A stretch of DNA of 64,000 bases from Physcia stellaris (taxonomy: Eukaryota > Ascomycota > Lecanoromycetes > Caliciales > Physciaceae). The notes beneath the pieces are model-generated. The model made no database searches. It worked only from the letters and a program-made list of their open reading frames with translations, and had not been told where the DNA came from. Position numbers and translations under genes: made by a program. This document shows, one piece after another, positions 1 through 27,302 of the stretch. Position 1 is the stretch's first letter, and each line of letters opens with the position of its first letter. Location: assembly GCA_018902385.1 (NCBI GenBank), contig JABSSW010000058.1, positions 1-64,000 on the forward strand. The letters are read 5' to 3'.

Positions 1-104
1 ACATGTTACGCGATTTCGAAAAAAAAAATTGTTATCATGTTTTTTTTAACGACAAACATTTAGCAATTGTCTCGTCACGTAATTGAACGAAAACGTTACG
101 TAAT

Positions 105-1030
105 GTGATCATGATGAATTTAATCGACGTTTTCGCTGATTTCATTACATTTAACATTTTTTCGATTATCATTTTTATGCAAATCAATTCGTCAATTAAT
201 TCAATATTTGATGTATCGATATTCGAAACTATTGTGTCATTTTTTATTTCGTTGAAAATCGTCATGTCAAACGAAATCATCGTTTTTGACGATTCGTCTG
301 TTTACAATCGACTTTTCACGATAGCGAAAGTTTATTTTGAAATTTGACGTGACATCGACGACACGATCAATGTGTTCGAAAAACAATGAATGTTTATATT
401 TATTTTGTTTGACGTTAAATCGAAAATCAACAAAATGTATTCGTTTAGTTCGGAAAATAAAAAAATAATCGACAAAAAGTTCGATCGACTACATAAAAAA
501 AACAAAATGACGTGAATTAATCAATTTATTTCGTACGATTACTCAGTTTTCGTGATGTGACGTACGATCAACGAACAACGCAAAAATCGCGTTGTAATAA
601 ATATTCGTGAACTAAATAAGATTTCGATGTTCGATGTTTATTTCATGTCGTTACAATCAGACATTTTATCAGCAATTATCGATTGTTCGTACATATCGAT
701 GATGAATTGTGTCGATTTTTTTCATCAATGATTAGTACGAATGATGAACAGACACAAATTGACAATGATCAATCATCGAGACAACGAACAATGAAACGTA
801 ATTGTCATGAATTATCGCAATTTTTCTGTTTACGTTCAGCGACAAATCGATTCGATTTTACGAAAATATCGACACTTTGTTAAAACGTATGTAGACGATA
901 TAATAGTATTTTCGAATTCGTTAAAAAAACATTTACGACATTTGAATCAAATTTTCGTTTTTTTCAAACGCATGAACATAATTTTCAAAATTAACAAAAT
1001 TTTTTTGATTATTTTATCATATCGCTGTTA
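105..1030 (+). pseudogene. Reverse transcriptase part of gypsy pol (degenerate)
   Basis: A readable frame at 105-347 resembles the spacer before RT in fungal gypsy elements and ends in TGA where the family has Trp. RT-like sequence follows, broken by further TGA codons at 387, 513, 558 and 729. At about 885-920 the frame encodes YVDDIIVFS, the RT active-site box with both catalytic aspartates. Near 1,030 the frame shifts by one base and continues into the RT thumb/RNase H connection. The assignment rests on motif order and on the active-site box, not on an alignment. Confidence 0.8.
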
Positions 1031-1147
1031 AATCAACGAATCGACAATTTGAAATTGATTATCGCGACGAATAAATTTGAAATTATTTTTGTTTTAATTT
1101 TTTTTCAAATTTTTAAACAGTTGAAAATTTATTTAAACAAAATCGAA

Positions 1148-1990
1148 TGATTGCGTCAATACGTACTTTATTATGCTCAAAAAATTTTGTCATTACAAAA
1201 ACGTAAAATTCGTTTGTTACGTCACGCATTTAACAAAAAACGATTTCGTCAACAACATAATCGACGTATTTCAATCGATGATTCGTCGTCGATCGAGATA
1301 AACGTTTTTAATCAGTTACAAAACGTTTTTAATCGATCAACGTTTTTAGTTCATTTCGACAAGACTAAAATTCTGTATATCGACGTGAACGTCAACAAAA
1401 AACGCGATTTTGACATTATGATTTATCACGTTAAATTTAAAAACGAACAAAAATGATGATTATCAGCATTTCGTTCAAGCGAACGAACGTCGAATTCATT
1501 ATGTTTTTAAACAAGATATTATCGTCAGCAGAGTTTCGTTATTGATCAACGAAACTGAAAATGACATCATTAGTATGATTTGTTCGTAAATTTCGTTTGA
1601 TGATCATGAGCAATCAATATTCAATTGTCATTTACATCGATCACGTCGCAAATTCGATTATTGTCAATCAAATTAAATTGACATTCAACAATGTAAATAA
1701 ATTGAATTTCAAATTAATAAAAATCAGCATTTATTTTTCTCAATTTCGTTTTCGAATTTTTCATAAAGTCGAAAAATTTAATATCGTATCAAACGTTTTA
1801 AGTCGATTTTCAATCGTACGTCATTTCAGTTCAAATACAAAAATCGATAATTTTGATTTGAAAATTTATCATTTTTACATCGATAAATCAAATTTTAACG
1901 AGAATTCGATACGAATTACGTTAATCGAAATGTCATCGAATTTTCGCAAAAAATTCATTATCGAATATCAGAAAAACGTTAATTGAAAAG
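1148..1990 (+). pseudogene. RNase H part of gypsy pol (degenerate)
   Basis: The frame starting after TGA 1148-1150 carries the connection region. A block around 1,500-1,600 matches the fungal gypsy RNase H start, with TGA at 1543 and 1576 in place of expected Trp codons. The segment 1,597-1,986 ends with a motif equivalent to the family's pattern of a His-Lys-Pro-Gly-Lys box followed by ALSR, here altered by Pro-to-Ser and Gly changes. This is the RNase H/tether region; catalytic completeness cannot be judged. It lies directly upstream of the integrase segment, as expected. Confidence 0.7.
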
Positions 1991-2199
1991 TCATTTTCGA
2001 TTTGTTGAAACGTCTCGTCAACGACGACGCTAAAAATCGATTATCGAACAAAAAATCGACGATTATCGAAAAAGTGTCAAGCGCGAAATCATTCACGATC
2101 ATTTTCACGTCGACATTTTTTAACGAAAACGAAATCACAAAAGTCGTCATTTCTGTGTCGTTTACAGCGCTTGTTTCGTCGTCGAATAAAATCACGATG

Positions 2200-3600
2200 T
2201 CAAATAAAAAATCATTTTCGAATTCAACATATTTGATTTTTGAAATCGATTTTCAACTTATCGACGATTTTATTTACTATGTAAAGAGCGATCAATCTAA
2301 ATTATGCATATCGAAAAATAGTATACACGACGTGTTCAAATTAGCACATGACGACAATTTTCATGTCGATCATCATCGAATTTACGATCGATTAAAAACA
2401 ATTTACGTACGACGATTTTTCAAACGATTAATCAATTACATTCGTCATTGCTTTTCGTGTCAACTGAATCAGATTAAACGACATAAGTTTTATGAAAATT
2501 AGCATCGATAAATATTTTCAACATGTTTTATTATACGATATCGATTGATTTTGTATTGATTTTATTTAAACAAAATCACGAATTCGATTGTCTCATGTTC
2601 GTTATTGACAAATTCACTCGAAAAACATTATTGATTCAAAAAAAAGCATATGATCAATCGACGAATGAGCAAACGCTTTGATCGATCGATTGTTGTTGAC
2701 AAATTGAAATATTTCAACAAAAATCATTTTCGATCGAAATCGAAAATTTTGTTTCGATTTTTGACGAATCATGTTCAAACGTTTAAACATTAATTTATTT
2801 ATGAGCACGATTTATCATTCACAAACGAACGATCAATCGAAACGTACAAATCAAACAATGAAAATTGCGTTTCGATTTCTTATTATCGTCAATTTCAATA
2901 TGAGTTGAATGAACGCGTTGTCAATTTTGCAATTCAATTTGAACAACAATGTACATGCAATCATCGAAAAGTTTTTCAATCAAATCGTTATCGACTTTCA
3001 ATTCAAAAAAATTATGATCGCGATAATCGTGTCATTTGTTTTACGACAATCGTCAAACACGATTATTTCAATCGCTAAATCGAAATTCGAGAAAAATCGC
3101 TTTGTTTTTCAAAAAAAAATTGACGAAATCATCGTTTTCGCGACAACAAAAATTAAAATTTTCTATGACAAACGTCATCAACATTTGAAATTTAATTTCG
3201 GAAATAAAACGTATTTTCGTCTGCATCACGAATACTTTTTTTCGTCTCAAATCAATGTTAAGTTGTTTAATCAAAAGATCGAATCGTTTCTGATAAAACG
3301 CAAAATAAAAAAGTTTGTTTACGAACTGAACTTGTCGTTCAAATGACAAATTCATTCAATCATATTTATTATGCAATTGAAATCGACGTCAAAAAACGTC
3401 GATTTTTATAATCGATTTCGTTCGAATCATTTCGACGTCGTCGAGATGAAAAGCACATTTAACATTTTTTGAAAGAAATTTTACGAAATAGAAAAACTGA
3501 TGAAAAAAAGAAATCGAAAATACGACAAAATCAAAATAATGAAATATCTGATAAAATGATTAAATTATGAATTTGAATTTGATGAATGAAAATCATTGTC
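2200..3600 (+). pseudogene. Integrase and chromodomain-like tail of gypsy pol (degenerate)
   Basis: At about 2,340-2,480 the frame shows His-x3-His followed by Cys-x2-Cys, the zinc-binding HHCC fold of retroviral-type integrases. The catalytic core region 2,560-2,900 is badly broken. The frame 2,909-3,346 resembles the end of the integrase core and the GPY/F-like C-terminal region. The continuation to about 3,600 resembles a chromodomain, with two TGA codons (3557 and 3587) exactly where the conserved Trp residues of that domain should stand. Such tails usually steer integration to heterochromatin. No function is expected now. Confidence 0.75.
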
Positions 3601-4472
3601 AATTTTAGCGAATTTCATGACATTGATGAAAAATTACGAGAAATTCAATTTTCAATCGATTACATCAATTTCAAACACGACACAAAATATCGATTTTGTA
3701 TCGTCAATTTCTAACAATTCAGAACGAAAACGAAATAAATTCAATAAAGCGATCGTCGAAAATCAACAAAAACGCAAAAAAAATCGATTTAAAAAAATCA
3801 ACGCATTTTGAATAGATGCGTACGTTGATTTCGTCAACGAGTAAATTTTATCATCATCGTGATTTAAATATTACTAAACAGTTTCGTTCAATATTTTAGC
3901 GTTTCGTTTAATAAACATTGTCGCGTCGTTAATCGAATATCGCGAATTCTCATTTTGAATTTTCATTTTGAATTTTCATTTCGAATTATCATTTTTATTT
4001 TTTATTTTGATTTTGTTCGTCGTTAAAATTGATTTATCGTTATTCAAATATGATTACATTCAGTTTTCAACATCGTCAAATGCATTTCTTAATTAATTTT
4101 AATTGAAACGCGTCAGTCGTTTTCGAAATTGCAAAAATGTTTCACGATCGATTTGTACATCAAGCATTTTTCGAATACGATTTTTATAATGTGCGTTCAT
4201 TCAGTGAAAATTCAACCTGACTGAATGCATTGTCAAAAAGAATAATATTTTTCGACGATTTTTTTTGAATCGTGAAAAACAAATACGACATTTTCGACAA
4301 AGTCAAAGAACAGCGTTTTTCGATTGACTTTGTTAACAAAAAAAAAATTCATGATAATCGTTCGCATAGAAAAAAAATCGTCAAATACAATGACGACGCA
4401 AAAACGTGATATTATCGTCAAACGTTTATTCAAAGCGACGATTCATATATTTTGTGAAAAAATGAAAACGAA
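3596..4472 (+). other. AT-rich remnant after the gypsy pol relic
   Basis: This stretch follows the chromodomain-like end. It holds a 71-codon Lys/Asn-rich open frame (3,596-3,811) that I do not recognise. Near 3,945-3,990 there is a short imperfect tandem run of a 14-base unit rich in TTTTGAA. I see no LTR border and no host gene. It may be the degraded 3' part of the element. Confidence 0.4.
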
Positions 4473-5540
4473 ATGACATATGATAATTTATCGAGAAATC
4501 AACGTGATATCATGACAAAATTGTCGATCGCAATGCAAAATAACAATGATTTTATCGTTATTGAATTCAACGATGCATTAATTATAAATTTTGACAACAC
4601 GTTTGATTTCGACTCAATCAGTTTTGTTAATTTCAATATTGTTTTTGTTATCGTCAATAACAGCAAAACAAAGCAAGCATTTTCAATCGTCAATAACAAC
4701 AAAATCAAGTCGATATTTTCAATCGTCGTTAGCAAAAACGACGACGACGATGAAAAAATGTCAATCAACAAACTCAGCAAAACTCAGAAAAAGAAAAAAG
4801 TCAAAGAATTTGCAAACAGTGCAATCAAACGACGCAAAAAAACAAAATTACTAATTCGTCGAAGCAAATTGATAAATAAGAAAGTTCTTGAAAACGAAAT
4901 TCTGATAAAAGAGTCGACAAACAATCAAAAAAAGTCGAAAGAATCGAAAAAATCGAAAAAATTTGAAAGCGACGAAAACGTTGATAGCGCGCAAATCAGC
5001 AAAAAGATAATGTTCGAAAAAAGCATGAAATCAATCGACATTGACAAAACAATTGACAAAAGCATCAAAGTTGATTTCATCAAAACGTTCAAGTCGAAAA
5101 AAAATGAGAATGACGACGAATTGTTCATTGATATTCAATTGAGCAAATTTCGATATCATGACTTTTTGTTCAACGAAAAACTAAAAAATGTCGAAGTTTT
5201 TTTGAATTTCGCACGAAAGTTCGACAATCAGATTTTTGAATTATTTCAACGCATCGAAATCATTTTAACAAATTTCGATGAATGTACGATGTCAATTGTT
5301 GAAAAAATCGCAATCGACGAATTTATCGAAACGTATCGAATTTGTCGAAATCAAAAAACGAAAATGAAAATCATATTGATCAACAAGCGTTTTGACTTAA
5401 TCAAATTGATAATTCAACATATCGATTCAATCGTCAAAAATGTTGATCGCAATTTTTTAAACGTTTGTTACGTCGTCGTTCGCGAAAAACGCTTTCGATC
5501 GAACACTAACATCGAACACGATGTTTTCAAAAAATATTGA
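4473..5540 (+). pseudogene. Unrecognised 355-codon open frame in the mutated zone
   Basis: This is the longest uninterrupted frame in the first 27 kb. The predicted product is Lys/Asp/Ser-rich, with a low-complexity basic middle section (about residues 110-180) and a more ordinary, possibly helical C-terminal part (about residues 230-345). The DNA still contains CT and AG dinucleotides that are nearly absent in neighbouring relics, so it has been mutated less. It might be a gag or accessory frame of a mobile element, or a decayed single-copy gene. I see no RT, integrase, transposase or zinc-knuckle motif. The composition may itself be a product of C-to-T mutation, so function should not be assumed. 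Confidence 0.35.
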
Positions 5541-6100
5541 GCAAAAGCTTTAGAATTATGAATGATCAAAACGTTGACGCTGAAATTAACGAAAATTACA
5601 AATTCGTTGACAAAAAAATCACGAAAAGTTAGAGCGTTGAACTATGACGCTTAACAATGAATATGAGATACAAACAAGATGAACATGAAACATCAACGTG
5701 AACGTTGAGCTTTTTCTCGTTGCGAGATGTTGATACGAGCACAGATAATTGCTTGATGATGATTAACTCGATAATTGCTTGATGATGATTAATTTCCGTT
5801 AGATTGACTAGTTGTACTTAAGAAAATTTCTATTCTAGCTAGCAATCGAATTCATTTACATTCATTGATATCGATTCTTAGTAGTTGATTATTTCTAGCA
5901 GAATCATTGCGATGTATGACTCAATCAAAATTTAATTCGACGAAAAAACTTTGTTGAAATTTTGTAATTTGAAAAGCGATAAATTAATTTTTTATGATGT
6001 AAAAGCATGATTTGTGTATATAAAATTTAATCACGTAGTTTGCGTTTAGACATTATTTCGTCAACGTTTTGATTTTTACATAATAAACGTTACACAATTT
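5541..6100. other. Less mutated island, possible LTR or intergenic remnant
   Basis: From about 5,600 to 5,920 the sequence has many AG, GA, CT and TC steps, unlike the saturated relics on both sides. It contains a 26-base tandem duplication (5,744-5,792). A TATA-like stretch lies near 6,016-6,026, followed by an AATAAA-like signal near 6,080 and a T-run. This layout would fit a retroelement LTR, but I found no second copy in the window and no clean TG...CA ends. Confidence 0.3.
5744..5792 (+). repeat. Two-copy tandem repeat, 23-base unit, period 26
   Basis: A 23-base unit beginning GATAATTGCTTGATG occurs at 5,744-5,766 and again, identically, at 5,770-5,792, separated by CTC. It lies in the less mutated island. 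Confidence 0.85.
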
Positions 6101-6825
6101 TTTTTTTTCGTTATTATGCATGAATCAATCATCGACGATTATGATAAAAAAATTTTGTATTCGAATATATTTTATCGAATTTAAACGTTCAATGTTGTAA
6201 AAAAAACGAAAATTCAATGTCGTGATGATTTTCGAACGACGAAAATTCGTGTCAACAAATTGAAACAAAAATTGAAAAAAACGCGTGAACAAATTCGAAA
6301 ATAACATCGACGAACGATCGTTATTCAAACAAATTCAAATTATAATCATTTTGAAATTACAATTCGTAATAACATTTTTGTCGATTCGAATAATGTAATT
6401 ATAAATGCAATTGTTATGAAAAAATAAATGTAATAAAAATAATGAATTTTTTTTATCGTTGAATATTTAATATTTGAATCAATTACACATAATTGTAAAT
6501 CATGAAATCGCGAATTTAATTTGAATAAATCAATAAATATAACATTTTTTGTGAACGCAATTTTGTGATATCAATATTAACAACAAAAAAAATTGAAATG
6601 AATAAACAATTGCGACATTTTTTTCGATGCGATTATACGAAAAAAATTCATTGTAATAACGTTTTTTAACGATAATTACAATGAAATTCATTTGCATCAA
6701 ATCAAATTTGTTTCGATGATAAAATTTTGAACGTTTATTTTGCAATTAAAATTATATTTCGAAAATTAATAAAACAAATTTTTGAAAAAAATAATTTCGA
6801 AAACGAACATATTTACATATTGCGC

Positions 6826-7271
6826 GATCGAAATGTCGTCGCAAATATAAATTACGTATAAAAACAAATTTTTTTGTTTAATATTTTGAAATCAATGATT
6901 GAATAATGATGACATTATATCGACAATAAAATATGAAACAATAAATTTTATTCGTTGTTCATTAACTTGAATATAACGTCGATAATAAAATCGTCGACAA
7001 AATCAAATACGAAAATGAAAACGATAATATCGACATTTATATCGTTAACAACGAATTTTTCGAATTTTTTTTGCAAAACGATCGTGAATTTTTTTTGAAT
7101 CGTGTCGTTTTCGATCGAAACGTCGTCGCGAATGTAAATTACGTGTTGAAAGTAATTTTTTTTGTTCAACATTTTAAAATTAATGATTGAATAATGATGA
7201 TATTATGTCGACAATAATGTGTAAAACAATAAATTTTATTCGTTGTTTATTAATTTGAATATGATATCGAT
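6826..7271. repeat. Direct duplication of about 150 bp, 286 bp apart
   Basis: A block at about 6,833-6,978 is repeated with scattered transitions at about 7,119-7,271. The second copy stops exactly where the LTR of gypsy copy A begins (7,272). This suggests a tandem array with a 286-bp unit whose second unit was interrupted by the element. The rest of 6,100-6,830 is AT-rich and carries nothing I recognise. Confidence 0.6.
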
Positions 7272-7488
7272 TGTAACGAACGTGCATCGAATTCAACATT
7301 TAACAAATTAACATCGTGTTAACATCGTTATTTTATCACATCGAATGTTAAAATCGAAATTCGTTTTGACGCATTCGAAAAATCAAATTTTTTACATATG
7401 TTTTTGTAAATTTTTATGTATTTGTTTTTTATTTAAAAATTTTCGTGTAATTATGTATTAATATTATATCAATGCATGACATTTCATA
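7272..7488 (+). repeat. 5' LTR of gypsy copy A
   Basis: The segment starts TGTAACGAACGTGC and ends ATTTCATA. It is about 217 bp and is the reverse complement of the LTRs of copy B at 12,095-12,308 and 19,458-19,672. Copy B LTRs start TGTGA and end TCACA, so the ends of this copy carry additional transitions. Confidence 0.85.
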
Positions 7489-9069
7489 TTATTTTTAAAT
7501 CATTCATTTTTTTCAAATTGTTCGAAATACGACAATTTATTTAATAAACAAAATTTCAAATCAATTACGAAAATTTAAAACGTCATTTTCAAAATCAAAT
7601 TGAACAAAAAAATTCGATTTTATTCAACGAATCAACAAAAAAAAAAAACAAAAAATTCAATTCGTTTTAATGTTGTACAAAATTTTCAAAAAAATGTTTA
7701 TCGCGAAAATCGATGTATCAAATCGAATATATCGAAAAACGAATTGCAAAAATAATCGTCAAATTATTAATCAACAAACATTTATACGATAAATTAAAAT
7801 TTAACATTCATCGTTTTATCAAAAATTATTTATCATAATTTAACACGAATTATTTCATCGAAAATAACATTAATTTAAAATTGTTTTCGTTGTTTTTCAC
7901 GATCAAATTTTTAAAACACGATTATTTTTGAATATTTATTGTCGAATTCATTGAAACGAAATTTTTTTTTTGTATTAAAATTTCAATCATGTTTATTTTT
8001 ATCAACATTTTTTTTGTGATTATTTTTTTTAAATTTAAACGCAAAATTTTTAATCAAATTGAATAATTAACAATTTTTTCGAAAAATGATCAAATTATCG
8101 TCGATTCATTCAAATTGATAAAAATTATTTTTTTAAATTATGTTTTTTCGAAAAACGCAAATTACAATTCGAACGATGCGAAACACGCGATAAACATTTG
8201 TATCGTCGAACAATTTCAACAATAAATTCGCAAAAAAAAATTTTTGTATTGCAAATATTGAATCAATTGAAAATCGATCGTGACGCAAAAAATCAAATTG
8301 TTTAAAATTAAAACGTTCACGTAAAAAATTATAATTCGTTGATCAAAAATTTCGAAAAAATCGAAAAAAACAAACAACACAATCGAAAAATTGTCAATTT
8401 ATTTCGATGAAAAAATAAAAATATAAATAAATTAAATATCGATAATTTCAAATTCAACATCGAAAATGAAAAATTCAAAAATAATAATCAAACGTTGTAT
8501 AACGAAATGAAAATTTTTCGAATGAATTTTACAACAACGTTCATTTTTCAAAATGACATCAAATTCAAAATCGAAAATGTTAAATTAATCAATCGTAATA
8601 TAAAATTATAAAACAAAATGAACGCATTAAAAATCAAAATATTATCGACAAATTTCATTTCGTTCATCGATAAAAAAACAAAAATGTAAAAATGACGAAT
8701 TTTTTCAAATTCAATGAAAACATTTTCGATTTTTTTTACGAAATTTTAAAATAATTCGTCAAAAATAAATTCATTGTCAATGTCGATCATTTCTTTGACG
8801 AATATATCAAAATCACGATTTTTATTAATTGAATTGAAAAAAAAATCAAAAAACATGTTTTCGCAAAACGTAACATCGATATCGTTTTTTTCAAAAATTT
8901 TCAAAAAATTTTCGATATTTTATTTTTAATTTACGCAAAAAAAAATAAAAAACGAAACATACGTAACAAATTCAAAATTTTTATCATGCGTATCAATCAA
9001 CGTTTTTCGAAATTTTTTTCGAAATTTTTGTTGTTATTCAATCAATTGTTTCATTAATCGCAACAGAAT

Positions 9070-9438
9070 TTGACGAATGAATTTCGCGAAAAATTTATTT
9101 TTCAATTTCAACGAATTATTGTTAATAACGATCGATTTATCACGATCGAAAATTTAAAAAAATTGATTGAAAAAATGAATCAAAAATTTCATTTTTTCGA
9201 AATCACACGTTTCGAAAATTCGATATTTAAAAATATTTCACGAATTATTTTCAAAATATCAATTATTAAAATCGTAATTCGTGATAATATGTTTAACGTC
9301 AAAAAAATCATGTTCGTTATCGATCAAATTATCATGAAAATTTTTTATAATAAAAAAAACATCGATAAAAAATGTTATCGTTATGAAATTTCAATCATTT
9401 GTTACGAAATTGTTTTTTTTAAAATCATCGACATTTGA
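9070..9438 (+). pseudogene. Retroelement fragment identical in copies A and B
   Basis: This 122-codon frame is predicted to be identical, residue for residue, to the frame at 17,503-17,871 on the minus strand in copy B. It lies between gag-like and protease-like sequence. I do not recognise a domain. Its identity contrasts with the visible divergence of the protease/RT-proximal region of the same two copies. Confidence 0.6.
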
Positions 9439-10319
9439 TTGTTCAAAAAAATTAAACAAAAAAAACATTTTAATAATCAACGAAATAAATAAATTTTAAA
9501 TGAATTTTCAAATCGAAATCGATTCAATTTTTTTTGATGATTATTTTAATAATATTAATAACGAAATTTTTTCAATTCATAAATCGAAAAACGTTTAAAT
9601 TTTTTCAAAATCGCGACGAAAATGTTGTTTATTTTAACAATGTCAAAAATATTCAACACGTTCAATAAATTTCAAAACAATTTTTTAATAATTAAATATA
9701 CATTAATTTTCGATAAATACGAACATAATTTGCAAACATTAATGAATACAAATGTTATTGAATACGTTTTCATTGATGAAAAAATTGCGCAATTAATTTG
9801 TGAAACATTTTAAATAATTTTTGTAATTTTATCACGATCGAAATTCGTCAATGAATTCGATAATCGAAAAATTAAATTCATTATTTATGTCATTTATTTT
9901 ACATTTATCGTGCAAAATCATTTCGAAATTACGATTTTTATGTTTATTATCAAAATTGAAATTTATTCGTTAATATTGAATAAATTTTGAATGAACGTTC
10001 ACGAAATCATTTTGAATATGAAAAACGATAAAATTATTTTCAAATTCGATCGTTGTTTTCATTTCGAAACGTTCAAAATTTTGAAAATTAAAAACGAACA
10101 ATTAATTTTTTTTAAAAAAATATATTTTTTATCGTCAATATCATCGATCAAACAATCGATATCGATAAATTTTCAAAAATATCGAATTATTTAAAAACGA
10201 TCAACGTCATTTACGTTCAAAATTAAATTTTTTTTTTTTATTGTCGAAAATTTCGAAAACGAAATTTTTTTTTTTCAAAAACATATTGAATTTCAATTTT
10301 CGATATATTATAAAAAAAA

Positions 10320-11520
10320 TTGATAAAAAATATTTTTTTGTCAAATTTTCGAAAAAAAAAACGAATTAAAATCAAACGAAATTTTCAACAATTTATTTTC
10401 GTGAAAATTTTTGTTCGAAAATCGAATTTGATTAAAAAATTTGTTCGACAATTTAATAAACGATTCAAAATCACGATTTTCAACAATGAAAATAACGAAC
10501 AAAATGTCGATTTTGAAACGTTTTTGAATATCGTTTTTATCGACGTCGTTGTTTATCAATTTTTGACAAAATCGAAAAAAAAAATCAAAATGTTTTCATT
10601 AATCATGAAAAAACTAAACGAAATCATTGACGAAATTCAAAAAAATTTAATTAAAATAAAATTCGATTTCGATATCGATTTCAAAAATTTTTTTAAAATC
10701 ATAAAAACAATTGTTAAAAAATTAAAACAAAATTTTTTTAATTTTTTTAAGCGATTCGAAAACGTATTCAATTTTAAAAAAACAAATAAATTATTTTTTC
10801 ATAAATTTTACGATCACAAAATCGAATTGACACAAAATACGATTCAATTATTTCGAAATCGAATGTATTTTTTATCGTTTAAAAAATTTGAAAATTTTCA
10901 AAAATATTTTCACGACAATTTTCAAAAAAAAATTTATCAATTCAAACAAAACATCATACGTATCGTTTATTTTATTCGTTGTCAAATCGAACGAACAATT
11001 TCGTTTATATATGAATTATCGAAAATTGAACGTTATAATCAAACGCAACAATTATTTCATATCGTTGATTAAAAAAATTTTCATTCGAATTATAAATTGC
11101 AAATTTTTATTCAAATTGAATATCATATCGATTTTCAATAAATTTCGAATGAATTCATAAAACGAAAATTTGACGATTTTTATATATTCATTAAACATTT
11201 ACAAATATTATATATTGTTTTTCGAATTAATCAATGATTCGACGAATTGACAACATTATATGAATTATTTGTTATTCGAATACATTAATTATTTTTGTTA
11301 AATATATTTAAATGATATTTTTATTTACAACAAAATTCGATGAAAATATGAACGACATTTCATTCAAATATTTCAAAAATTAAAAACAATCGAATTTCAA
11401 ATTGATATCAAAAAATACGAATTTTTTCAAACGAAAATATCGTTTTTGAACGTCATATTATCAACAAAAAATTTACGAATGAATTTCAAAAAAATTCAAA
11501 ATATCGTCAATTGAATTCGT
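10320..11520 (+). pseudogene. Reverse transcriptase relic of gypsy copy A
   Basis: The frame 10,320-11,072 contains the region that precedes RT in gypsy elements, including a YDHKIEL block. Around 10,920 a homopolymer A run shifts the reading to the frame 10,888-11,160, which has the NYRKLNVIIKRNNY block of RT motif 1/2. Later fragments to 11,520 carry the region around the catalytic YxDD box in broken form. The frameshift differs from the breaks in copy B, so the copies decayed partly independently. Confidence 0.75.
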
Positions 11521-12094
11521 TTAATTTGCATTAAAAAAATGCAAATTTTTGTAAATTTTTGCAATTTTTATCGTCGTTTTATCAAAACATTTTTCAAATT
11601 CGTTAAATTTTTGATTCGAATAATCAAAAAAAAAATTGATTTCGAATGAATCGATTTTGTCAACGAAACATTCGAAATTTTGAAAAAACAAATAATCGAA
11701 ATTTCAATTTTTCGATATTACGATCGCAATCGTAAAATTATTTTGAAAATCGATTTTTCGAATTGATATTTAAATGAAATTTTGTTTTAATACGACGACG
11801 ACGAAATGTTTCATTCGATAATTTTTTTCAACAAAAAAATGATTTTTGTCGAATGCAATTACGAAATATATGACAAAAAATTTTTGATCATTATTCGATG
11901 TTTGAAATATTGAAAATCAAAATTTGAAAATATCGACGAATTCGTCGAAATTTACATCGATTATAAAAATTTGAAAATTTTTATAATAAACAAAAAATTC
12001 ATTTTTCGTCAAATACGTTAAATCGAAATTTTGATCGATTACAACATCAAAATTCAATAATAATTCGAAATCAAAAATGTTAAAACGAACGTTT

Positions 12095-12308
12095 TGTGAA
12101 ATGTCATGCATTGATTGAATTAATACATAATTACACGAAAATTTCTAAATAAAAAACAAATACATAAAAATTTGCAAAAACATATGTAAAAAATTTGATT
12201 TTCGAATGCGTCAAAACGAATTTCGATTTTAACATTCGATGTGATAAAATAACGATATTAACACGATGTTAATTTGTCAAATGTTGAATTCGATACACGT
12301 TCGTCACA
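12095..12308 (-). repeat. 3' LTR of gypsy copy B
   Basis: In plus orientation the segment begins TGTGAAATGTCATG and ends ACGTTCGTCACA, so the LTR has perfect TGTGA...TCACA ends on the minus strand. It differs from the partner LTR at 19,458 by seven transitions that I counted by hand, four in CpT/ApG and three in CpA/TpG context, plus small homopolymer length changes. Confidence 0.88.
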
Positions 12309-16245: not shown

Positions 16246-18199
16246 GATTTTAAAATTTTTTTGAAATCGATATCGAAATCGAATTTTATTTTAATTAAAT
16301 TTTTTTGAATTTCGTCAATAATTTCGTTCAATTTTTTCATGATTAATGAAAACGTTTTGATTTTTTTTTTTTCGATTTTGTCAAAAATTGATAAACAACG
16401 ACGTCGATAAAAACGATATTCAAAAACGTTTCATAATCGAAATTTTGTTCATTGTTTTCATTGTCGAAAATCGAAATTTTGAATCGTTTATTAAATCGTC
16501 GAGCAAATTTTTTGATTAAATTCGATTTTCGAACAAAAATTTTCACGAAAATAAATCGTTGAAAATTTCGTATAATTTTAATTCGTTTTTTTTTTCGAAA
16601 ATTTGTCAAAAAAATATTTTTTATCAATTTTTTCGATGACATATCGAAAATTAAAATTCAATATGTTTTTAAAAAAAATTTTTCGTTTTCGAAATTTTCG
16701 ACGATAAAAAAAAAATTTAATTTTGAACGAAAATGAAAATGATCGTTTTTGAATAATTCGATATTTTTGAAAATTTATCGATATCGATTGTTTGATCGAT
16801 AATGTTGACAATAAAAAATAAATTTTTTAAAAAAAATTGATCGTTCGTTTTTAATTTTCAAAATTTTGAACGTTTCGAAATGAAAACAACGATCGAATTT
16901 GAAAATAATTTTATCGTTTTTTATATTCAAAATAATTTCGTGAACGTTCATTCAAAATTTATTCAATATTAACGAATAAATTTCAATTTTGATGATAAAC
17001 ATAAAAATCGTAATTTCGAAATGATTTTGCACGATAAATGTAAAATAAATGACATGAATAATAAATTTAATTTTTCGATTATCGAATTCGTTGACGAATT
17101 TCGATCGTGATAAAATTACAAAAATTATTTGAAATGTTTCACAAATTAATTGCGCAATTTTTTCATCAATGAAAACGTATTCAATAACATTTGTATTCAT
17201 TAATGTTTGCAAATTATATTCGTATTTATCGAAAATTAATGTACATTTAATTATTAGAAAATTGTTTTGAAATTTATTGAACGTGTTGAATGTTTTTGAC
17301 ATTGTTAAAATAAACAACATTTTCGTCGCGATTTTGAAAAAATTTAAACGTTTTTCGATTTATGAATTGAAAAAATTTCGTTATTAATATTATTAAAATA
17401 ATCATCAAAAAAATTGAATCGATTTCGATTTGAAAATTCATTTAAAATTTATTTATTTCGTTGATTATTAAAATGTTTTTTTTGTTTAATTTTTTTGAAC
17501 AATCAAATGTCGATGATTTTAAAAAAAACAATTTCGTAACAAATGATTGAAATTTCATAACGATAACATTTTTTATCGATGTTTTTTTTATTATAAAAAA
17601 TTTTCATGATAATTTGATCGATAACGAACATGATTTTTTTGACGTTAAACATATTATCACGAATTACGATTTTAATAATTGATATTTTGAAAATAATTCG
17701 TGAAATATTTTTAAATATCGAATTTTCGAAACGTGTGATTTCGAAAAAATGAAATTTTTGATTCATTTTTTCAATCAATTTTTTTAAATTTTCGATCGTG
17801 ATAAATCGATCGTTATTAACAATAATTCGTTGAAATTGAAAAATAAATTTTTCGCGAAATTCATTCGTCAAATTCTGTTGCGATTAATGAAACAATTGAT
17901 TGAATAACAACAAAAATTCGAAAAAAAATTTCGAAAAACGTTGATTGATACGCATGATAAAAATTTTGAATTTATTGCGTACGTTTCGTTTTTTATTTTT
18001 TTCAACATAAATCAAAATCAAAATATCAAAAATCATTTGAAAAATTTTGAAATAAACAATGTCGATTTTACGTCGAACGAAAAAATGTTCGCGAATTTTG
18101 TTTTCGATTCAATTGATAAATGTCGTTGTTTTAATATATTTGTCGACGAAATAATCAACGTTAACAATAAATTTGTTTTTGATCAATTGTTTTCAAATT

Positions 18200-18960
18200 T
18201 CAAAAAAAAAAAAATTTGAAATGTTTTTCATTGAATTTGAAAAAATTTTTCATTTTGACATTTTTATTTTTTTTATCGATAAATAGTGTAAAATTGAAAA
18301 TTAACGTTGTTGTGATTTTTAAAAAATTTATTTCGTTTTGCAATTTTATATTACGATTGATCAATTTAACATTTTCGATTTTGAATTTGATGTCATTTTG
18401 AAAAATAAACGTTGTTGTAAAATTCATTCGAAAAATATTCATTTCGTCACGCAACGTTTGATTATTTTTTTTGAATTTTTCATTTTCGATGTTGAATTTG
18501 AATTTATCGACATTGAATTGATTTATATTTTTATTTTTTCGTCGAAATAAATTGACGATTTTTCGATTATGTTTTTTGTTTTTTTCGATTTTTTCGAAAT
18601 TTTTGATCAACGAATTATAATTTTTTACGTGAACGTTTCAATTTCAAATAGTTTGAATTTTCGCGTCACGATCGATTTTCAATTGATTTAACATTTGCAA
18701 TATCGTGAAAAATTTTTGCGAATTTATTGTTAAAATTGTTCGACGATACAAATGTTTATCGCATGTTTCGCATCGTTCGAATTGTAATTTGCGTTTTTCG
18801 AAAAAACGTATTTTAAAAAAATATTTTTTATCAATTTGAATGAATCGACGATAATTTGATCATTTTTCGAAAAAATTGTTAATTGTTGAATTTGATTAAA
18901 AATTTTGCGTTTAAATTTAAAAAAAATAATCACAAAAAAAATGTTGATAAAAATAAACAT
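18200..18960 (-). pseudogene. Gag-like relic of gypsy copy B
   Basis: Two minus-strand frames (18,730-18,960 and 18,200-18,610) lie just inside the 5' LTR, where gag should be. The second is Lys/Asn/Phe-rich with a heptad-like pattern suggesting a coiled coil. No zinc knuckle is visible. Assignment is by position only. The corresponding region in copy A is 8,000-8,750. Confidence 0.5.
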
Positions 18961-19457
18961 GATTGAAATTTTAAAACAAAAAAAAAATTCGTTTCAATGA
19001 ATTCGACAATAAATATTCAAAAATGATCGTGTTTTAAAAATTTGATCGTGAAAAACAACGAAAACAATTTTAAATTAATGTTATTTTCGATGAAATAATT
19101 CGTGTTAAATTATGATAAATGATTTTTGATAAAACGATAAATATTGAATTTCGATTTATCGTATAAATGTTTGTTGATTGATAATATGACGATTATTTTT
19201 GCAATTCGTTTTTCGATATATTCGATTTGATACATCGACTTTCGCGATAAACATTTTTTTGAAAATTTTGTACAACATTAAAGCGAATTAAATTTTTTGT
19301 TTTTTCTTTGCTGATTCGCTGAATAAAATCGAGTTTTTTTGTTCAATTTGATTTTAAAAATGACGTTTTAAATTTTCGTAATTAATTTGAAATTTTATTT
19401 ATTGAATAAATTGTCGTATTTCGAACAATCTGAAAAAAATGAATAATTTAAAAATAA

Positions 19458-19672
19458 TGTGAAATGTCATACATTGATTGAACTAATACATAATTACACG
19501 AAAATTTTTAAATAAAAAGCAAATACATGAAAATTTGCAAAAACATATGTAAAAAACTTGATTTTTCGAATGCGTCAAAACGAATTTCGATTTTAACATT
19601 CGATGTGATAAAATAACGATGTTAACACGATGTTAATTTGTCAAATGTTGAATTCGATACACGTTCGTCACA
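19458..19672 (-). repeat. 5' LTR of gypsy copy B
   Basis: This 215-bp direct copy of the LTR at 12,095-12,308 starts TGTGAAATGTCATA and ends CGTTCGTCACA in plus orientation. It marks the 5' end of the minus-strand element. Confidence 0.88.
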
Positions 19673-22672
19673 ATGTGAACGTCAATATTCAAATACGAAA
19701 TTGTTTCATTTATGATCAATTTTATGTGATCGTGTTTAAAGTCACGAATAAGCACAATTTTCACATTTTTATATTTGAATTGAATGTTTTGTCAAACGAT
19801 TTTTCACGAAAAATAATTATTCATCAATGAAAAAAATTTTTATTAAAGAAAATTAAATTCGATTAAAATTCATGTTATGTTTCGAAATTGATGTCAATTG
19901 ATTGCGTTTTACGAAATTTGATCGTTCATTTATTTATTTCGCAACGTCTCATTCATTTAATTTTTCGTTTTTTTATCGTTATTATTTTACAGATTGTTTT
20001 TATTGCATTCATTTTTTTCATTCATTCGATTTTTCGCATTTTTCAGATTTTTCGCAAAACGTTCAGATTGTTTCGTCGTTGTTTCATCGTTTTCAATGTC
20101 TGTTTTTCAGTTCATTTCGCGAAAATTCGTATCAACTAATCAATTTTACGATACGAATTGAATACGAATCTAATTCGTTTGAGATTTTTTTGAATTGTTT
20201 CGTCGAATCTTTATAACAAAATTCAAAAATTTTCATTTTGACAAGTTTCGACGAAATTTATGTTCAAAAAGCAAAATTACGAAACTATTTTAACTTTTGA
20301 ACGTATTACGTTTAATTAAATCAAATATACGAGACATGCGCGATCGAAATCAGAAAACAAACATTGAAAATGATTGAATAACGACGAAACAATTTGATGT
20401 TGTTGCGAAATTGCGAAAATTCGAATATTTGATTCAAATGTTGTTGTGTGATTTATTTTTCATATGAAAAATACATGTATGTGATCGTTAATTTCGACAT
20501 GTCGTAAATAATTTGTAATTGACGCGTGATAATTGTCGTCGTCGTCGATAAAATCGAATTTGTTTGAAACTTTGTCATTTTCGCAAAGAAATTTCTTCAT
20601 GCGAAATTGATTTTCGCGACATTATTGTTTAATTGAATCAAAATCAAAATTCATTTTTGCGATTTTTTTTTTTTTGAAAAATGCAATTTGAATCAAATGT
20701 CACGATTATGCGCATTTTTCGAATTCGATTGCAATTAAAATTTACAATTGTTTCAATTCGTACGTTGTAAAATTTTCAAAAAATAATGACGTATTGTTCG
20801 AAAAAATGATTGAATACGAAATATTGATTGTTCGATTGTTGAAATTTCGAATTTCAATGAAAAAAAAATTTCGACATTCGATTTCAAAAATTTTCAAAAA
20901 TATTTGTTTCATACATCACACATTTTTATGCGCAAACGATTTATGATCGCGAAATTCACGCACATGCATGATCATAATCGTACAATTAAACGATTTTAAA
21001 AAATAATAATTGCGAACGTTGTAAAATTGAATCATTAATCGTCGAAATCGTTTTCGTGAAAATCTTCGAATGCTGTTAAGATTTAAAATTACACAATTTT
21101 TTTAAAAAAATCACGAACAAACTTGTTGTTTGATATAATTTTATCGAAATTCGATTCGTAATGTTTTATTGATTTGAATTTTGAATATTTTACACAAAAT
21201 CAATCGAATATTTTTTTCGACGTTGATTTTGTTTTTACAAATCGCATTAATTTTGACAATTGATTTTTTTTTAAAATTAAAACAATTTTTTTTGTATTTT
21301 ATTACAATTGTAATAATTTCAATTTTTTTTCGTTATTGCGTTGACGTTTTTTTTTCGTTTTGTTAAATTGATTTTTCGTTTTATCAAATTGCGCCAAAAA
21401 AATTTTGACGATTTTTTTGTTTTTTTGACGTTCACGATTTTTGAACGAAAAAATTTACAAAAATCGAAAAAGTTTTTGAAAATTTTGATAAATCGATAAT
21501 TGTTTTGTATTAACAATTTTGATTAAAATTTTAATTAATTTTTTTTAACAAATCGTTAATAAAATTTTATTAAATGTGATGATTTTTCGTATAATATTAT
21601 TCAATTTATAAAAAAATTCTTGTTTTTTTAAATATTTTCGATAACGTTTAATTTTGTTTTTAACGATTCGAAATGTATTGCGAATTTATTTATCGTTTTT
21701 TGATTTAATATTGTTGTAATTTTGATCAATATTAAAACGATAAATTTCGAAAAATTCGATTTCGTTATTATCAATTTTTTTCGATATTGATTTGTTTTTC
21801 GATACGATTTTTACAATTCGATTAAAATTGAATCAAAAAATTGTTGCGTTTAAGCGATTTTAATATAACATTTGAAAAAATAATTAAAATTTACGTCGAA
21901 AATTCACACGACATTTCGAATTCATAATTGATAATTTTTAATATTTTTAACGTTGTAAATCGATAAATTTTTGAATTTAAATTTGATAATTTGTCGAAAA
22001 CGCGAACGTTTAATAATAAATTTATTACGAAATTTTTTATTGTTGTCGTTGTTGTCGTTATCGTCGTTATTGAAAAACGTTTATGAACGTTTTTTTCTCT
22101 CGAAAAAATGAATTAAATTCATTTTGTTTTTTTTCAAATAATTTTGTTTCAAAACGTTTGATTTTCGTTATTGACAATTTATATTCACGTTTGTTTTTCG
22201 ATTTATTTTTTTAAATTATCGTTTGAATTGTTCGTAATTGTACATAATCAATTTGATTATCAAATTCAAAATCGTCGATCTGTGTTGAAATAACGATAAT
22301 ACGTCGAAACGATATACGAAAAACAACAACGATACGTTTATGATTATTTAATGAATTTTATTAATCGAAATTAATTCGTTTTGTTGATTTATTTCAAATT
22401 TAAACGATTTTACGATCGTGTTGTCGAATAATAATTGTTAAAACAAAATAACGATCTTATTTCGAATCACGAACGCATTGACAACAAATATTTTCGAAAT
22501 TTTAAATGATATTTTTTAATCGAATAATTATTTACGAAAATTTAAACAATTTAAAATTATAAAAAAATATACGATTGAATAATTAAATAATTACAACGTC
22601 GAGAAAATGTTTCATTTGCTTATTGACATAAAGTTTACAAACGAATTATGCAAATTGTATAAGTGTTATAAG
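19673..22672. other. Unclassified AT-rich mutated sequence
   Basis: There are about 3 kb with the same depletion of CpT and CpC as the relics. Short frames such as 19,888-20,216 are Phe/Ser-rich, as expected when Leu and Pro codons decay to Phe and Ser. I recognise no domain, LTR or terminal repeat. It is not the missing 3' part of copy A. Confidence 0.5.
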
Positions 22673-23215
22673 TTGACTTTTTAGTCATTAAGCAGTGAAT
22701 AGCAATATTTAAATCGACTTTTTAGTCATTAAACAGTGAATAGCAATATTTAAGTCGACTTTAAGTCAATTAAGTCAATAATATTAAGTATTTAAACAAG
22801 CGTAAAGCGTCAAAAGTCGATAATCAGTAGTAAAAATTCGACGTTGATTGAAAAAATCTCAATTAAGTTTAGCGTTTTCGCGTTTTTTGATGTTCGTTGT
22901 CAAAAAAAATAAAAAAAAATAACGAAAAGCGCGTAACGACGTCGTTATCAACGTTATAAAAAAAATAATTTTATTTTTGAAAAATTCACGTATTTTTCAC
23001 ATAGAAAGATGTTATTTATAATATAATACGTGTATCATACATTAAATAACAGTTAAGTAAAAAAATTTGCTTTTGATCATTAAATAACTTAAATACATAA
23101 TATTGTTGATTTAAATGATTTAAATACTTAATATTGTTGATTTAATTGACTTAAATATTGTTATTCATTGCTCAAAGTTGATTCAATTGACTTAAAGTCG
23201 ACTCAAATACAATCA
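22673..23215. repeat. Small direct and inverted repeat array
   Basis: A 41-bp unit containing GACTTTTTAGTCATTAA occurs at 22,673 and 22,714, with a partial third copy at 22,755. A related sequence in opposite orientation lies at about 23,110-23,215, including AAATACTTAATATTGTTGAT and a GTCGAC-containing end. The two arms therefore form an imperfect inverted repeat of 60-120 bp around a core of about 300 bp. The size and structure resemble a MITE-like element. Mutation saturation is lower here than in the gypsy relics. Confidence 0.5.
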
Positions 23216-23241
23216 CTTTTGATTCAAATTTTCAATGTTAC

Positions 23242-23402
23242 TGTTACGATAAAACGTATTGAATAATAATGTGATTGATAAAGTGATTAAATTGTTACTA
23301 TCTAGAAAACAAAATGCAAATACTGAATCAAATTGTCAAAACGTTAGTTTGTTCTTGTCAAAATATTTCGATTTCAATTCTATGTGAAAATTTATCGTAA
23401 CA
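23242..23402. repeat. Left LTR of the 2.8-kb element
   Basis: It is 161 bp and starts TGTTACGATAAAACG. It aligns without gaps to 25,875-26,035 with 20 differences by hand count, all transitions. Confidence 0.85.
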
Positions 23403-23442
23403 AATGTCATCGAACGAAAAAAATCACAACGTTTTCGTTGTG

Positions 23443-25214
23443 TTACATGCGACAAACGTGTGATTCATCAACAGAAAATTTTAATAATAATACATGCAAG
23501 AAGTAAAAAAATAAAATTTCATTTCTCGATAAAACGTTCAAAATTTCGAAAATTTGCAATGCGATCGCGTCATCGAAGATTTTTTGAATCGTTACGAAAT
23601 TTTTGATTAAAATGAATCGATCGTAAATATGTTGCAAATTCATATTTGATTTGAATATATCGTTGCAAATGCGACAAACGTGAAAAATTTGAAAAAAGAT
23701 TTGCAAAAAAATGATTTTGATCGAAAATTTCGAAAATTCGATCAAGAAAGTGATGCGAAAAATATTCGACATTTTGTATGACGAAATGCTCGATATCTCT
23801 AAAATAAATAAACGAAAAATTGTTGATATTTTGTATGATAAAATAATGAATTTCTCAAATCATTTGTTGAAAATATTGAATTTGATGCGATTCGATTTCG
23901 CGAACGTATGATGTTGAAAACTTTTCGAATTTGAAATTTTCGAATTTTGAATAATCGATTTGTTTTGATTGATTGCAAACTTGAAATATGCAATAATTTT
24001 GATTTGATTGAAAAATTTCGAAAATGATTTGTTTTTTTTGATAAAATATTTGATGTGCAAAAAATTCGTTTTTTTGAATTTTTCAACGAACATTCTGAAC
24101 AAATCGTCGATAATAAAATAAAACTTTTGATGTTTCGAAATCGAATTTCGAAAAGAAATAAACGACGAAATAAACAAACAAGTCATTGATATTATTTTCG
24201 TCATTTTTGATACGTTTCTTGATGTCGCAATTGAAAAACGCAAACGTGAAAATGAAACATTTGATCGTAAAATTGTTTCGATCGAAAATATTTGTTTTCG
24301 TGATGTTGCAATTGATGCAATTGACGAATTTGAAAATAAAAATTTCGAAATCGATTTTGCAAAATTTGTAAATGATGTGAACATCAATATTGATTCATTT
24401 CGTAATAAAAATATTGTTGACAATTTCAAAATCAATTGAAAAAATGTTGCAATTGATGCAATTGACGAATTTGAAAATAAAAATTTCGAAATCGATTTTG
24501 CAAAATTTGTAAATGATGTAAACATCAATATTGATTCATTTCGTAATAAAAGTGTTGTTAACAATTTCAAAATCAATTGAAAAAATGTTGCAAACGATGT
24601 AAATATTGCTTTCGATATAAATGAAAATGTAAATGTTTTCGATGTTCGTTTTGCGAATATTCAAAAACATGTAAATGAATATTCGATATGTTTTTGATAT
24701 GAATTTTCGTCAATTTCGAAATCGTAAAATTGAAAATCGCAAATTTCGCAATAAATTTGATTTGACATATTTGAATTTTGTTTGCAAATGAAATTTGCAT
24801 TGAAAAATTGATTCGATGAAAAATATTGAATAAACGAATAATTGATGTAAAATGCACATCGTTGTGCGAAAAAAATCACAAGAAATTTAACGTCGAGATG
24901 ATTGATTGTAAAAAAATAAAAATTTCGCGAACTCGCTTAATGTGAATTCGACGAACATCGTTTTTAATGTAAATTTTGAATTCGATGAGAATATTGCGAA
25001 CTCGTTCGAGATGAATTTTGTAAATTTTTTTTAATGATGATTTTGAATATGTTGATGAAATTTCGTATTGTTCGAAAATTTGACAAAACAACGTCTGCAT
25101 GCAAAAATCGTTAATCGAATTTTTCTTGTTTTTTTGCAATGTGAATTTGTTCAATTCGTTGTTTTTGTTTTTGTTTTTGACGTGTTTGCTCAATTGAATC
25201 GAATATTTGAACAA
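23443..25214 (-). pseudogene. Internal coding relics of the 2.8-kb element
   Basis: Minus-strand frames at 24,876-25,214, 24,573-24,879, 23,860-24,576 and 23,443-23,772 follow one another and probably derive from one long protein. The frame 23,443-23,772 contains HVCRICNDIFKS, a Cys-x2-Cys knuckle like the C2H2-type fingers in some fungal retroelement proteins; its second His is not evident. The frame 23,860-24,576 contains a duplicated 47-residue segment. The element type cannot be decided from this. Confidence 0.45.
24303..24584. repeat. Tandem duplication, 141-bp period
   Basis: The sequence starting ATGTTGCAATTGATGC at 24,303 is repeated at 24,444 with only a few transitions; a diverged third start is at 24,585. 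The period is a multiple of three, so on either strand it gives a repeated 47-residue peptide unit. Confidence 0.85.
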
Positions 25215-25874
25215 GTTTATTGCACAACGTATTGAGATTTTTGATCACGTATTTTTGTACAAACTCGACGAAATTTTGAATCATTCATATGCGAAATCTT
25301 GTAAACAATAAACGATTACAAATTGAGAATTTGCATTTTTTTGAATAATGATTTGTTTGACGAAAAATTTGACGTTTCGATAAACAATATAATCGTCATC
25401 GTCGTGATTGACTGATAAATCGAAACAGAAAAAATCGAATTCGTGTCGATAAATGTGTCGTCAATAAGCGATTTCTGATTGCTGAATGAACATGATTGAA
25501 TAAATAAATAAATTTCTGATAGAGTAAATAAATATGTTGATCAAAAGATTAGATATTTGAGTTGCGAAAAACTCGTGAATAAATAAATGTTTCGTAATTG
25601 AAATTTCGAATGTCGAATAATTAAATGTTTCGAAAGTTAAATATTTTGTTTGTCACATTGAATGTTCGAAAACTAAATGTTGCAAAACAATTAAAATCGT
25701 TATCGTCAAACTTGATTAGATATTTCACGAGAATTGCAGCAATTATCGTCTGTTAAACTAAATATTTCACGAAAATTGAAATTGCATTGCAACTAGACGT
25801 TACACGATAATTAAAAGTTGTTTGTAAAACAACGATAAAAGTTGTTCAATCGATTACTCGATGATGTTATCATT

Positions 25875-26035
25875 CGTTACGATAAAACGTATTGAATAAT
25901 AATGTGATTGATAAAATAATTGAATTGTTATTATTTAAGAAACAGAGTGCAAATATTGAGTCAAATTGTCAAGACGCTAATTTGTTTTTGTCAAGATATT
26001 TCGACTTCAGTTCTATGTGAAGATTTATCGTAACA
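25875..26035. repeat. Right LTR of the 2.8-kb element
   Basis: It is 161 bp and starts CGTTACGATAAAACG, so the first base differs from the usual T of a TG terminus. It ends TTTATCGTAACA. It is followed by ATTAC, the right half of the target-site duplication. Confidence 0.85.
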
Positions 26036-27302
26036 ATTACGAAAAAACAATGTTTTTGACTAATCGATTAATCGACTCGAAATCGAATTTAAACGCATAA
26101 ATCAATAAAAACTTTTTTTCGACGAAATAAACGCAATATTTACGAAACGATATTAAATTATCGTGATAACATTATGAATAATAATAAAATTGAATCGTGA
26201 AAACGAAATTTTTTTTTCGAAAAAAATGTTATATTTTATTAATCAAAACGTTAAATTCGATTAAATTAACGTATTTGACGATTTTAACATAACATAACAA
26301 TTTTAATTTTTTTTTCGCATTTTTTTTTTCGATTTTTAGTTTTTATTATCGTTTCGATGTTATTTAAATTCAAAATTTTTGTCGTATAAAAAATTGAATC
26401 GTGTCAAAAACATATTTAAAAATTGTTGTTAAATTTTATCAAATTTTGAAATAATAACGAATTATTTGACAATAAAAAATAATATTTGTGAAATTTTGAT
26501 ATTTTGCAAACATTCAAATTTATCGACAAGATTTTCAATAAAATTTTTAATTTTCGAAATAATAACAAATCGTCAAAACGACGTTTGCAAAAAAAAATAT
26601 TATCAACATGTTTGATAAATAAATTAATTGATAAATAATTTGATAAATAAAACAATTTAACAAATATGTCGAAATAAACAAATTATGTTTTTGTTTTTAT
26701 TAACGAATTTTGAAATAAACGTGATTCAAAATTTAACGTGCGCATATTATTTGCAATTTTAATATTTTGTATTTATTTGTTTTTGTTTAATTAATCAATC
26801 AATACAAACATACAAATATAATTCATGATAAATTCAAACATATAAAAAAGTGTTCGTGTTTTGTAACGTTTTGATTACACGATTCGAAACAATTATTTTT
26901 TCGAATATCAAAAACATATAATTTTAATTTTCATTAATTGATGCAAATAAATCAATTTTTTTAAAAAAAATTCGTATAAATACACAATATGTTACAAAGA
27001 TTACAAGACTATATTGATAGTCTAGAAGTTATGACGAGCTGATAATTGAACTGATAATAAGAAATAATGTACATATTATGATGTTTTGGTTGAGACGCCG
27101 CTTGACTAGCCGATCGGGACTAGCGTGTCCCAATTCTTAATCCTCTGACGAGACAGCTTGAGCTGGGGAGCGCGGATTGCAAAGACAAATGCCAAGGTGT
27201 AGTATCGCAGTCGAGAAATCCGCTTTTCAAGTTGCAACCTCGTTGTTATCTTCGTATGGTGCTGCCGCGTAAACGCAGACATTCAAGTCTCCAATCCTCG
27301 CC
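26036..27302. other. AT-rich tail, compartment boundary and upstream region of complex I gene
   Basis: AT-rich mutated sequence without recognisable element continues to about 27,000. Between about 27,000 and 27,090 the composition changes sharply to ordinary GC content with normal CT, CC, AG and GG use. The remaining roughly 210 bases up to the ATG at 27,303 must hold the promoter of the complex I gene. Confidence 0.7.

Follow-up and report, generated by a model that had tools for sequence, protein, structure and literature searches.

The repeated sequences of the ascomycete Physcia stellaris have probably been inactivated by a repeat-directed C:G to T:A hypermutation that takes cytosine before a pyrimidine (CpY) as its target and that is, in kind, repeat-induced point mutation (RIP). 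We analysed a window of 64,000 nucleotides (bases 1–64,000 of contig C58; the assembly has 43.97 Mb in 147 contigs), a sample of the rest of the genome and alignments of mutated repeat copies with an unmutated relative. As read from the alignments, the order of targets is CpC > CpT >> CpApY > CpApR > CpG, the last being close to zero. Almost only transitions were found, on both strands, and repeats were hit while the sampled GC-rich DNA was not.

The AT-rich block that occupies positions 1–27,000 of the window has a G + C content of 0.239, against 0.49 for the rest, and dinucleotide counts showed that CpC and CpT, together with GpG and ApG for the other strand, are nearly gone from it, while CpA and CpG are kept. 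CC occurs three times against 373 expected from the base composition, GG twice against 400, CT 162 times against 1193 and AG 238 times against 1266; taken together, there are 5 CC and GG against about 774 expected, and 400 CT and AG against about 2,458. The corresponding observed/expected ratios are 0.01, 0.00, 0.14 and 0.19, so that the depletion of CpC goes further than that of CpT, and those of CA, TG, CG and TA are 1.19, 1.21, 4.02 and 0.48. CC and GG together never fell below 700 in 200 mononucleotide shuffles of the block. Ordinary base composition was ruled out as the cause, since the same block carries CG at four times and TA at 0.48 of expectation. Both CC and GG are absent between positions 5,796 and 21,394 (15.6 kb), and a stretch of about 4.36 kb (12,146–16,502; 12,145–16,502 in the dinucleotide scan) contains no CC, GG, CT or AG at all. 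A sequence-only reading of this DNA had stated that cytosine remains in the block almost only before G or A, and its counts were reproduced: in the first 300 bases C precedes A 19 times, G 22 times, T 4 times and C never (fractions of.0635,.0736,.0134 and 0 of 299), and the samples near 9,060 and 16,020 agree, the kilobases starting at 9,001 and 16,001 each holding no CC, GG or CT and a single AG. In the flank (27,100–64,000) the dinucleotides are normal. The edge is sharp (26,995–27,005), with eight CT or AG in 27,001–27,050 against one in the preceding 50 bases; the bias ends within about 10 bases of position 27,000, and the last repeat match stops at 26,841, about 160 bases earlier.

The standard RIP indices failed to flag the block, as the same reading had predicted. 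For the whole block TpA/ApT is 0.50 and (CpA+TpG)/(ApC+GpT) is 1.29, which is RIP-negative under thresholds of ≥0.89 and ≤1.03, respectively (given in the accessible part of PMC6180176). None of the 27 kilobases of the block reached the TpA/ApT threshold (the highest value was 0.80), and two passed the second index alone, with 0.99 (starting at 1) and 0.77 (starting at 22,001).

The same bias was found elsewhere in the genome. Twenty 4-kb pieces from 15 contigs, chosen at round coordinates, gave 80 one-kilobase windows, of which 15, from four samples on contigs C1, C2 and C3, were AT-rich (GC < 0.36). All 15 were biased, with observed/expected ratios of 0–0.03 for CC, 0.04–0.42 for CT, 2.5–4.3 for CG and 1.2–1.6 for CA, and with TpA/ApT between 0.33 and 0.58; the remaining 65 were ordinary and free of the bias. 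In this 80-kb sample CpA shows no depletion and the GC-rich windows look normal, and neither of the two patterns that the sequence-only reading had set against itself appeared. Moreover, the internal stops in reverse-transcriptase matches (150 scored of 527 candidates) comprise 250 TGA, 33 TAA and 3 TAG. This excess of TGA is what would be expected if GpG was hit and CpA was not, since a change of GpG to GpA turns tryptophan codons into stops, whereas CpA to TpA would hit glutamine codons.

The direction and context of the changes were established by aligning mutated copies to an unmutated Ty3-type element on contig C52 (L016; GC 0.51), which bore out the earlier proposal that cytosine is changed to T by a process whose neighbour preference is not the classical one. 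The closest record of the process is copy L055. Its alignment to L016 over about 3.48 kb holds 919 C>T or G>A changes, two substitutions of other kinds and ten gaps 1–2 bases long, and the C>T changes affect 436 of 438 CpC, 452 of 463 CpT, 27 of 445 CpA and none of 411 CpG. In a 2,959-base comparison 888 of 901 CpY sites were changed, with no transversion. Expressed as −ln(1−f), where f is the fraction converted in L055, the rates are 5.4 for CpC, 3.7 for CpT, 0.06 for CpA and below 0.009 for CpG, i.e., an excess over CpA of about 85-fold for CpC and about 60-fold for CpT (lower limit about 35), and of more than 350-fold over CpG. Because CpY is nearly saturated in L055 with almost no other change, the mutations must have arisen in a burst and not by slow decay. 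The alignments thus show a process that is near-saturating, fast relative to ordinary mutation and in need of a pyrimidine at position +1.

The 19 other genome matches of L016 are 67–75% identical to it, and pooled they show the same order: 6009 of 6124 CpC (98.1%), 5688 of 6421 CpT (88.6%), 494 of 6089 CpA (8.1%) and 220 of 5465 CpG (4.0%) are converted. A separate multiple alignment of four of these copies agrees with the pooled fractions. NCN and CNN tables for four copies showed that conversion depends chiefly on the 3′ base, the 5′ neighbour mattering little. In the four copies so tabulated both strands are mutated, with 84–91% of CpT converted on one and 77–86% on the other. At L021, five 250-base bins have no CC or GG and still 8–15 CT and AG; this, together with the conversion fractions in the 19 copies and in L055, indicates that CpC is used before CpT. 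Some copies show more change at CpA and CpG, with CpA reaching 15% in L057 and 19.5% in L065, the match that has diverged most; outside L055, a good part of such change would be later or background.

Two further contexts were rejected as explanations. A CpA-directed RIP acting first was ruled out, as the freshest copy, L055, has only 27 of 445 CpA changed. Ultraviolet light and the known deaminases were ruled out as well, since TCA and TCG (0.07, 0.04) are spared about like ACA and ACG (0.10, 0.09), the contexts used in this comparison being those generally attributed to these agents. The suggestion of a second process beside ordinary RIP was not supported: in L055 the CpA change is 6%, with 22 of its 27 changes at CpApY, and CpG is unchanged.

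Two side observations concern L055. Its CpA changes are found at 22 of 187 CAY sites against 5 of 258 CAR sites (Fisher P 2.4e-5), and a pyrimidine at +2 may partly stand in when +1 is A. Moreover, of the 13 CpY sites left unconverted, eight are crowded into about 150 bases (about 1,721–1,871 of the L016 alignment), seven of these eight on one strand, and a clustering of this degree was equalled in none of 5000 resamplings; shielding or processive action is possible there.

The process is almost certainly of the RIP type, because the transitions, the involvement of both strands, the restriction to repeats and the sharp end match RIP. With moderate confidence, we further assign its specificity to an RID-like enzyme. 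The process would act in the sexual phase, before meiosis, by analogy with RIP in Neurospora. A cytosine methyltransferase of the RID/Masc1 family (RID-A or RID-B, see below) would read the +1 base as a pyrimidine, possibly assisted by a DIM-2 homologue.

The search for RID and DIM-2 homologues proposed by the sequence-only reading was successful. A PF00145 profile search of the genome gave four matches corresponding to three genes, one DIM-2-like and two RID-like. The DIM-2-like gene has its closest relative of solved structure in 9bap (608 bits, E 2e-181), listed as a DNA cytosine-5 methyltransferase, and matches DUF7893 (E 8e-30). We take 9bap to be DIM-2, and DUF7893 presumably belongs to DIM-2. 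Both RID-like loci (L009 and L011) carry the PF00145 domain and the sequence SPPCQ, with the PCQ of motif IV, and in both the ENV triad of motif VI is replaced, by EQT in RID-B (LEQTSGL, contig C5) and by EET in RID-A (MEETFGL, contig C6). The spliced models (L014, L015) share 193 of 493 aligned positions, and their lengths are 507 residues for RID-A and about 798 for RID-B, whose N-terminus is unsettled. The accessible part of PMC6709928 gives both EQT and EET for the RID class, with EET in the Rid proteins of B. cinerea and P. destructans.

A possible but clearly less favoured explanation is that the DIM-2 homologue, and not an RID-like enzyme, is the mutator, methylating and deaminating heterochromatic repeats. 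A DIM-2-like gene is indeed present, and DIM-2 of Neurospora is described as methylating chiefly outside CG, preferably at CpT (PMC13297926, accessible part); the same source states that in Neurospora RIP new repeats are acted on by RID, while older heterochromatic repeats need DIM-2. However, the top target here is CpC rather than CpT, CpA is hit about 60- to 85-fold less, and an edge sharp to about 10 bases disagrees with the spreading that would be expected of an enzyme borne by heterochromatin.

We regard as improbable a homology-guided enzyme outside the RID/DIM-2 chemistry, which would modify the G of RpG (purine before guanine) or directly deaminate the cytosine of CpY and would leave an O6-methylguanine-like signature in repeats only. 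Still a little less probable is a lesion at guanine, in which an enzyme or an adduct acts on the G of RpG (GpG>ApG), as with O6-methylguanine, and replication then gives C:G to T:A, a spectrum that appears as CpY when read from the opposite strand. The strand that bore the lesion cannot be told from sequence alone, and SBS11, the O6-methylguanine signature, follows the same 3′ rule, with C>T at NpCpC and NpCpT, although it is described, in the accessible part of PMC12556801, from tumours after temozolomide and without repeat targeting. The contrast between contexts in P. stellaris is about 60-fold or more. Chemical alkylation is far less selective and is not confined to repeats, and we know of no repeat-directed guanine modifier.

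Equally doubtful is a slow decay in which repeats methylated at CpY lost their cytosines gradually in the course of evolution and not in a mutator burst. Such decay would fit the copies with more CpA and CpG change (15% of CpA in L057, 19.5% in L065) and an inverted pair of copies in the window, described below, whose C/T differences lie mostly before A. It is contradicted by L055, with its 888 of 901 CpY sites changed without a transversion in 2,959 bases and its two other substitutions over about 3.48 kb. The editing of retroelement complementary DNA by an APOBEC-like deaminase is very unlikely: retroelements do make up many of the targets, and one source-like copy has stayed free of mutation, but such editing would mark one strand, whereas the four copies checked show both strands nearly equally affected, and the context here lies on the 3′ side, unlike the 5′ contexts (TpC or WRC) of known deaminases. 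An artefact of assembly or library preparation, e.g., converted reads, can practically be dismissed given the sharp edge, the two strands, the strict context and the presence of the bias in the window and in four AT-rich samples (C1, C2 and C3) with normal GC-rich DNA around.

Several observations weigh against a CpY-directed RIP set by an RID-like enzyme. The two RID-like proteins are no more than candidates for the source of the CpY preference, and one strand shows slightly less conversion of CpT than the other. L016 is intact beside its otherwise near-identical mutated sibling L055, and by the description in PMC2621366 (accessible part) RIP would hit both copies. According to the accessible part of PMC3017866, RIP in N. 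crassa needs at least 400 bp and 80% identity; by this analogy, a cut-off at 80% as in Neurospora would now leave out L016, whose identity to its other matches is 75% at most. Furthermore, not every long repeat was hit. L017 (contig C5) and L018 (contig C12), two copies of a different Ty3-type element, share 95% identity over 3.4 kb and have essentially escaped mutation. Their C/T differences, counted on both strands, lie before C in 38 cases, T in 36, A in 26 and G in 22, i.e., with a mild excess in the pyrimidine context (74 against 48). Many other members of the L018 family are 68–81% identical to L018, and many relatives are degraded. The process may be idle now, or the pair may have arrived or been brought together recently. 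A 136-base repeat just beyond the edge of the block (27,020–27,155, forward strand), which has two matches of 83–84% identity in contig C3, was spared like this 3.4-kb pair.

RIP preferences in fungi have reportedly been surveyed by Clutterbuck in 2011. The statements on published systems that follow refer to the accessible parts of the papers cited. RIP in N. crassa, carried out with RID and DIM-2, shares with the process in P. stellaris the C:G to T:A changes on both strands, the targeting of repeats, the AT-rich transposon blocks and the presence of RID and DIM-2 homologues, but its order of targets is CpA > CpT > CpG > CpC (PMC5496416), against CpC > CpT >> CpA > CpG here. CpA as the main target is typical of RIP, if not strictly defining, and it is not the main target in P. 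stellaris (27 of 445 CA against 436 of 438 CC in L055). In the N. crassa Tad1 family the alignment shows more CpT than CpA changes (PMC2621366). Trichoderma reesei also differs from Neurospora in its preference; however, CpA and CpG are about equal there and CpT exceeds CpC, so that CpC comes last (PMC5496416), whereas in P. stellaris it comes first.

CpT is among the targets in Botrytis, Sclerotinia, Magnaporthe, Colletotrichum truncatum and Anisogramma anomala, but in these genomes, unlike in P. stellaris, it is accompanied by CpA. A survey of ten genomes distinguished CpA, CpT and CpG signatures, the CpT genomes also showing CpA, and the term CpC is unused in its accessible text (PMC4352252). 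A. anomala has two rid genes and one dim-2 gene, as P. stellaris does, and its targets are CpA and CpT (PMC10998396). In C. truncatum CpT is hit in some long terminal repeat families and TpA/ApT is about 1.6 (PMC6180176), against 0.5 in the block described here. CpT>TpT was also dominant in RIP-capable controls (PMC7882544). In the Basidiomycota Microbotryum and Rhizoctonia, mutation at CpG or TpCpG is likewise a biased C>T (PMC4352252, PMC4014442); Microbotryum, however, targets CpG, which stays untouched in L055 (0 of 411). In the single nucleotide polymorphism (SNP) table for Rhizoctonia solani AG8, CpC is the densest C/T class, with one per 214 bp, followed by CpG (370), CpA (422) and CpT (491), although the authors themselves describe a CpG bias (PMC4014442). 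Unlike the changes in P. stellaris, which spare CpA and CpG, these are inter-nuclear SNPs in genes and repeats, with the four classes within about 2.3-fold of one another. A k-mer survey of 1,239 fungal species concluded that a preference for CpA is common to RIP-like defences (PMC12543289). Hits at CpT in themselves are not new, while repeats in which CpC leads and CpA is spared are unusual; no report of a CpC-led, CpA-sparing mutation of repeats was found in the open-licence PMC literature, subscription literature lying outside the search.

P. stellaris is thus an exception to the shared CpA preference, sparing CpA about 60- to 85-fold, and its order of targets comes near to inverting the one known for this type of genome defence. 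As the standard indices read such genomes as RIP-negative, similar ones may have been missed. The pair L016 and L055 is a clean before-and-after record of the mutator, and with two RID-like genes in one genome, what sets the dinucleotide choice of RIP becomes testable. The CpY rule also alters the damage to genes, as tryptophan codons become TGA and glutamine codons survive.

The probed parts of the AT-rich block are nearly all repetitive; the copy search left out 3,500–5,700 and 12,097–14,854. Retroelement domains were detected in some of its frames when TGA was read as tryptophan. A mutated Ty3-type retroelement occupies positions 1–5,891 of the forward strand, its right end being approximate, with matches to RNase H and integrase zinc-binding domains and a weak match to a chromo-domain. 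Bases 1–2000 have seven further full-length copies with 91–93% identity, and the similarity extends to about 3,500. Further repeats with piecewise matches elsewhere follow at 5,901–7,271 (main matches 73–93% identical), and nested repeats were found by similarity search at 19,673–26,841; 5,700–7,271 and most of 19,673–26,841 have many matches elsewhere in the genome. Among the scored candidates no match was found for 24,623–24,920 and 25,180–25,546 (about 0.3–0.4 kb each).

Between these repeats lies an inverted pair of saturated copies, 7,270–12,096 on the forward and 14,855–19,674 on the reverse strand, which are 93.8% identical. Positions 15,302–16,063, read with TGA as tryptophan, match RVT_1 (E 1.8e-8). 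The leftover C/T differences of the pair lie before A in 113 cases, then before G in 31 and T in 14, and a slower decay of CpA may follow the exhaustion of CpY. In the flank the copy search covered 27,020–30,000 and found no other copies of 27,156–30,000. The gene-rich flank with normal dinucleotides (27,156–64,000) contains genes for an ATR-type kinase, NCA2, an AAA ATPase and an aldo/keto reductase.

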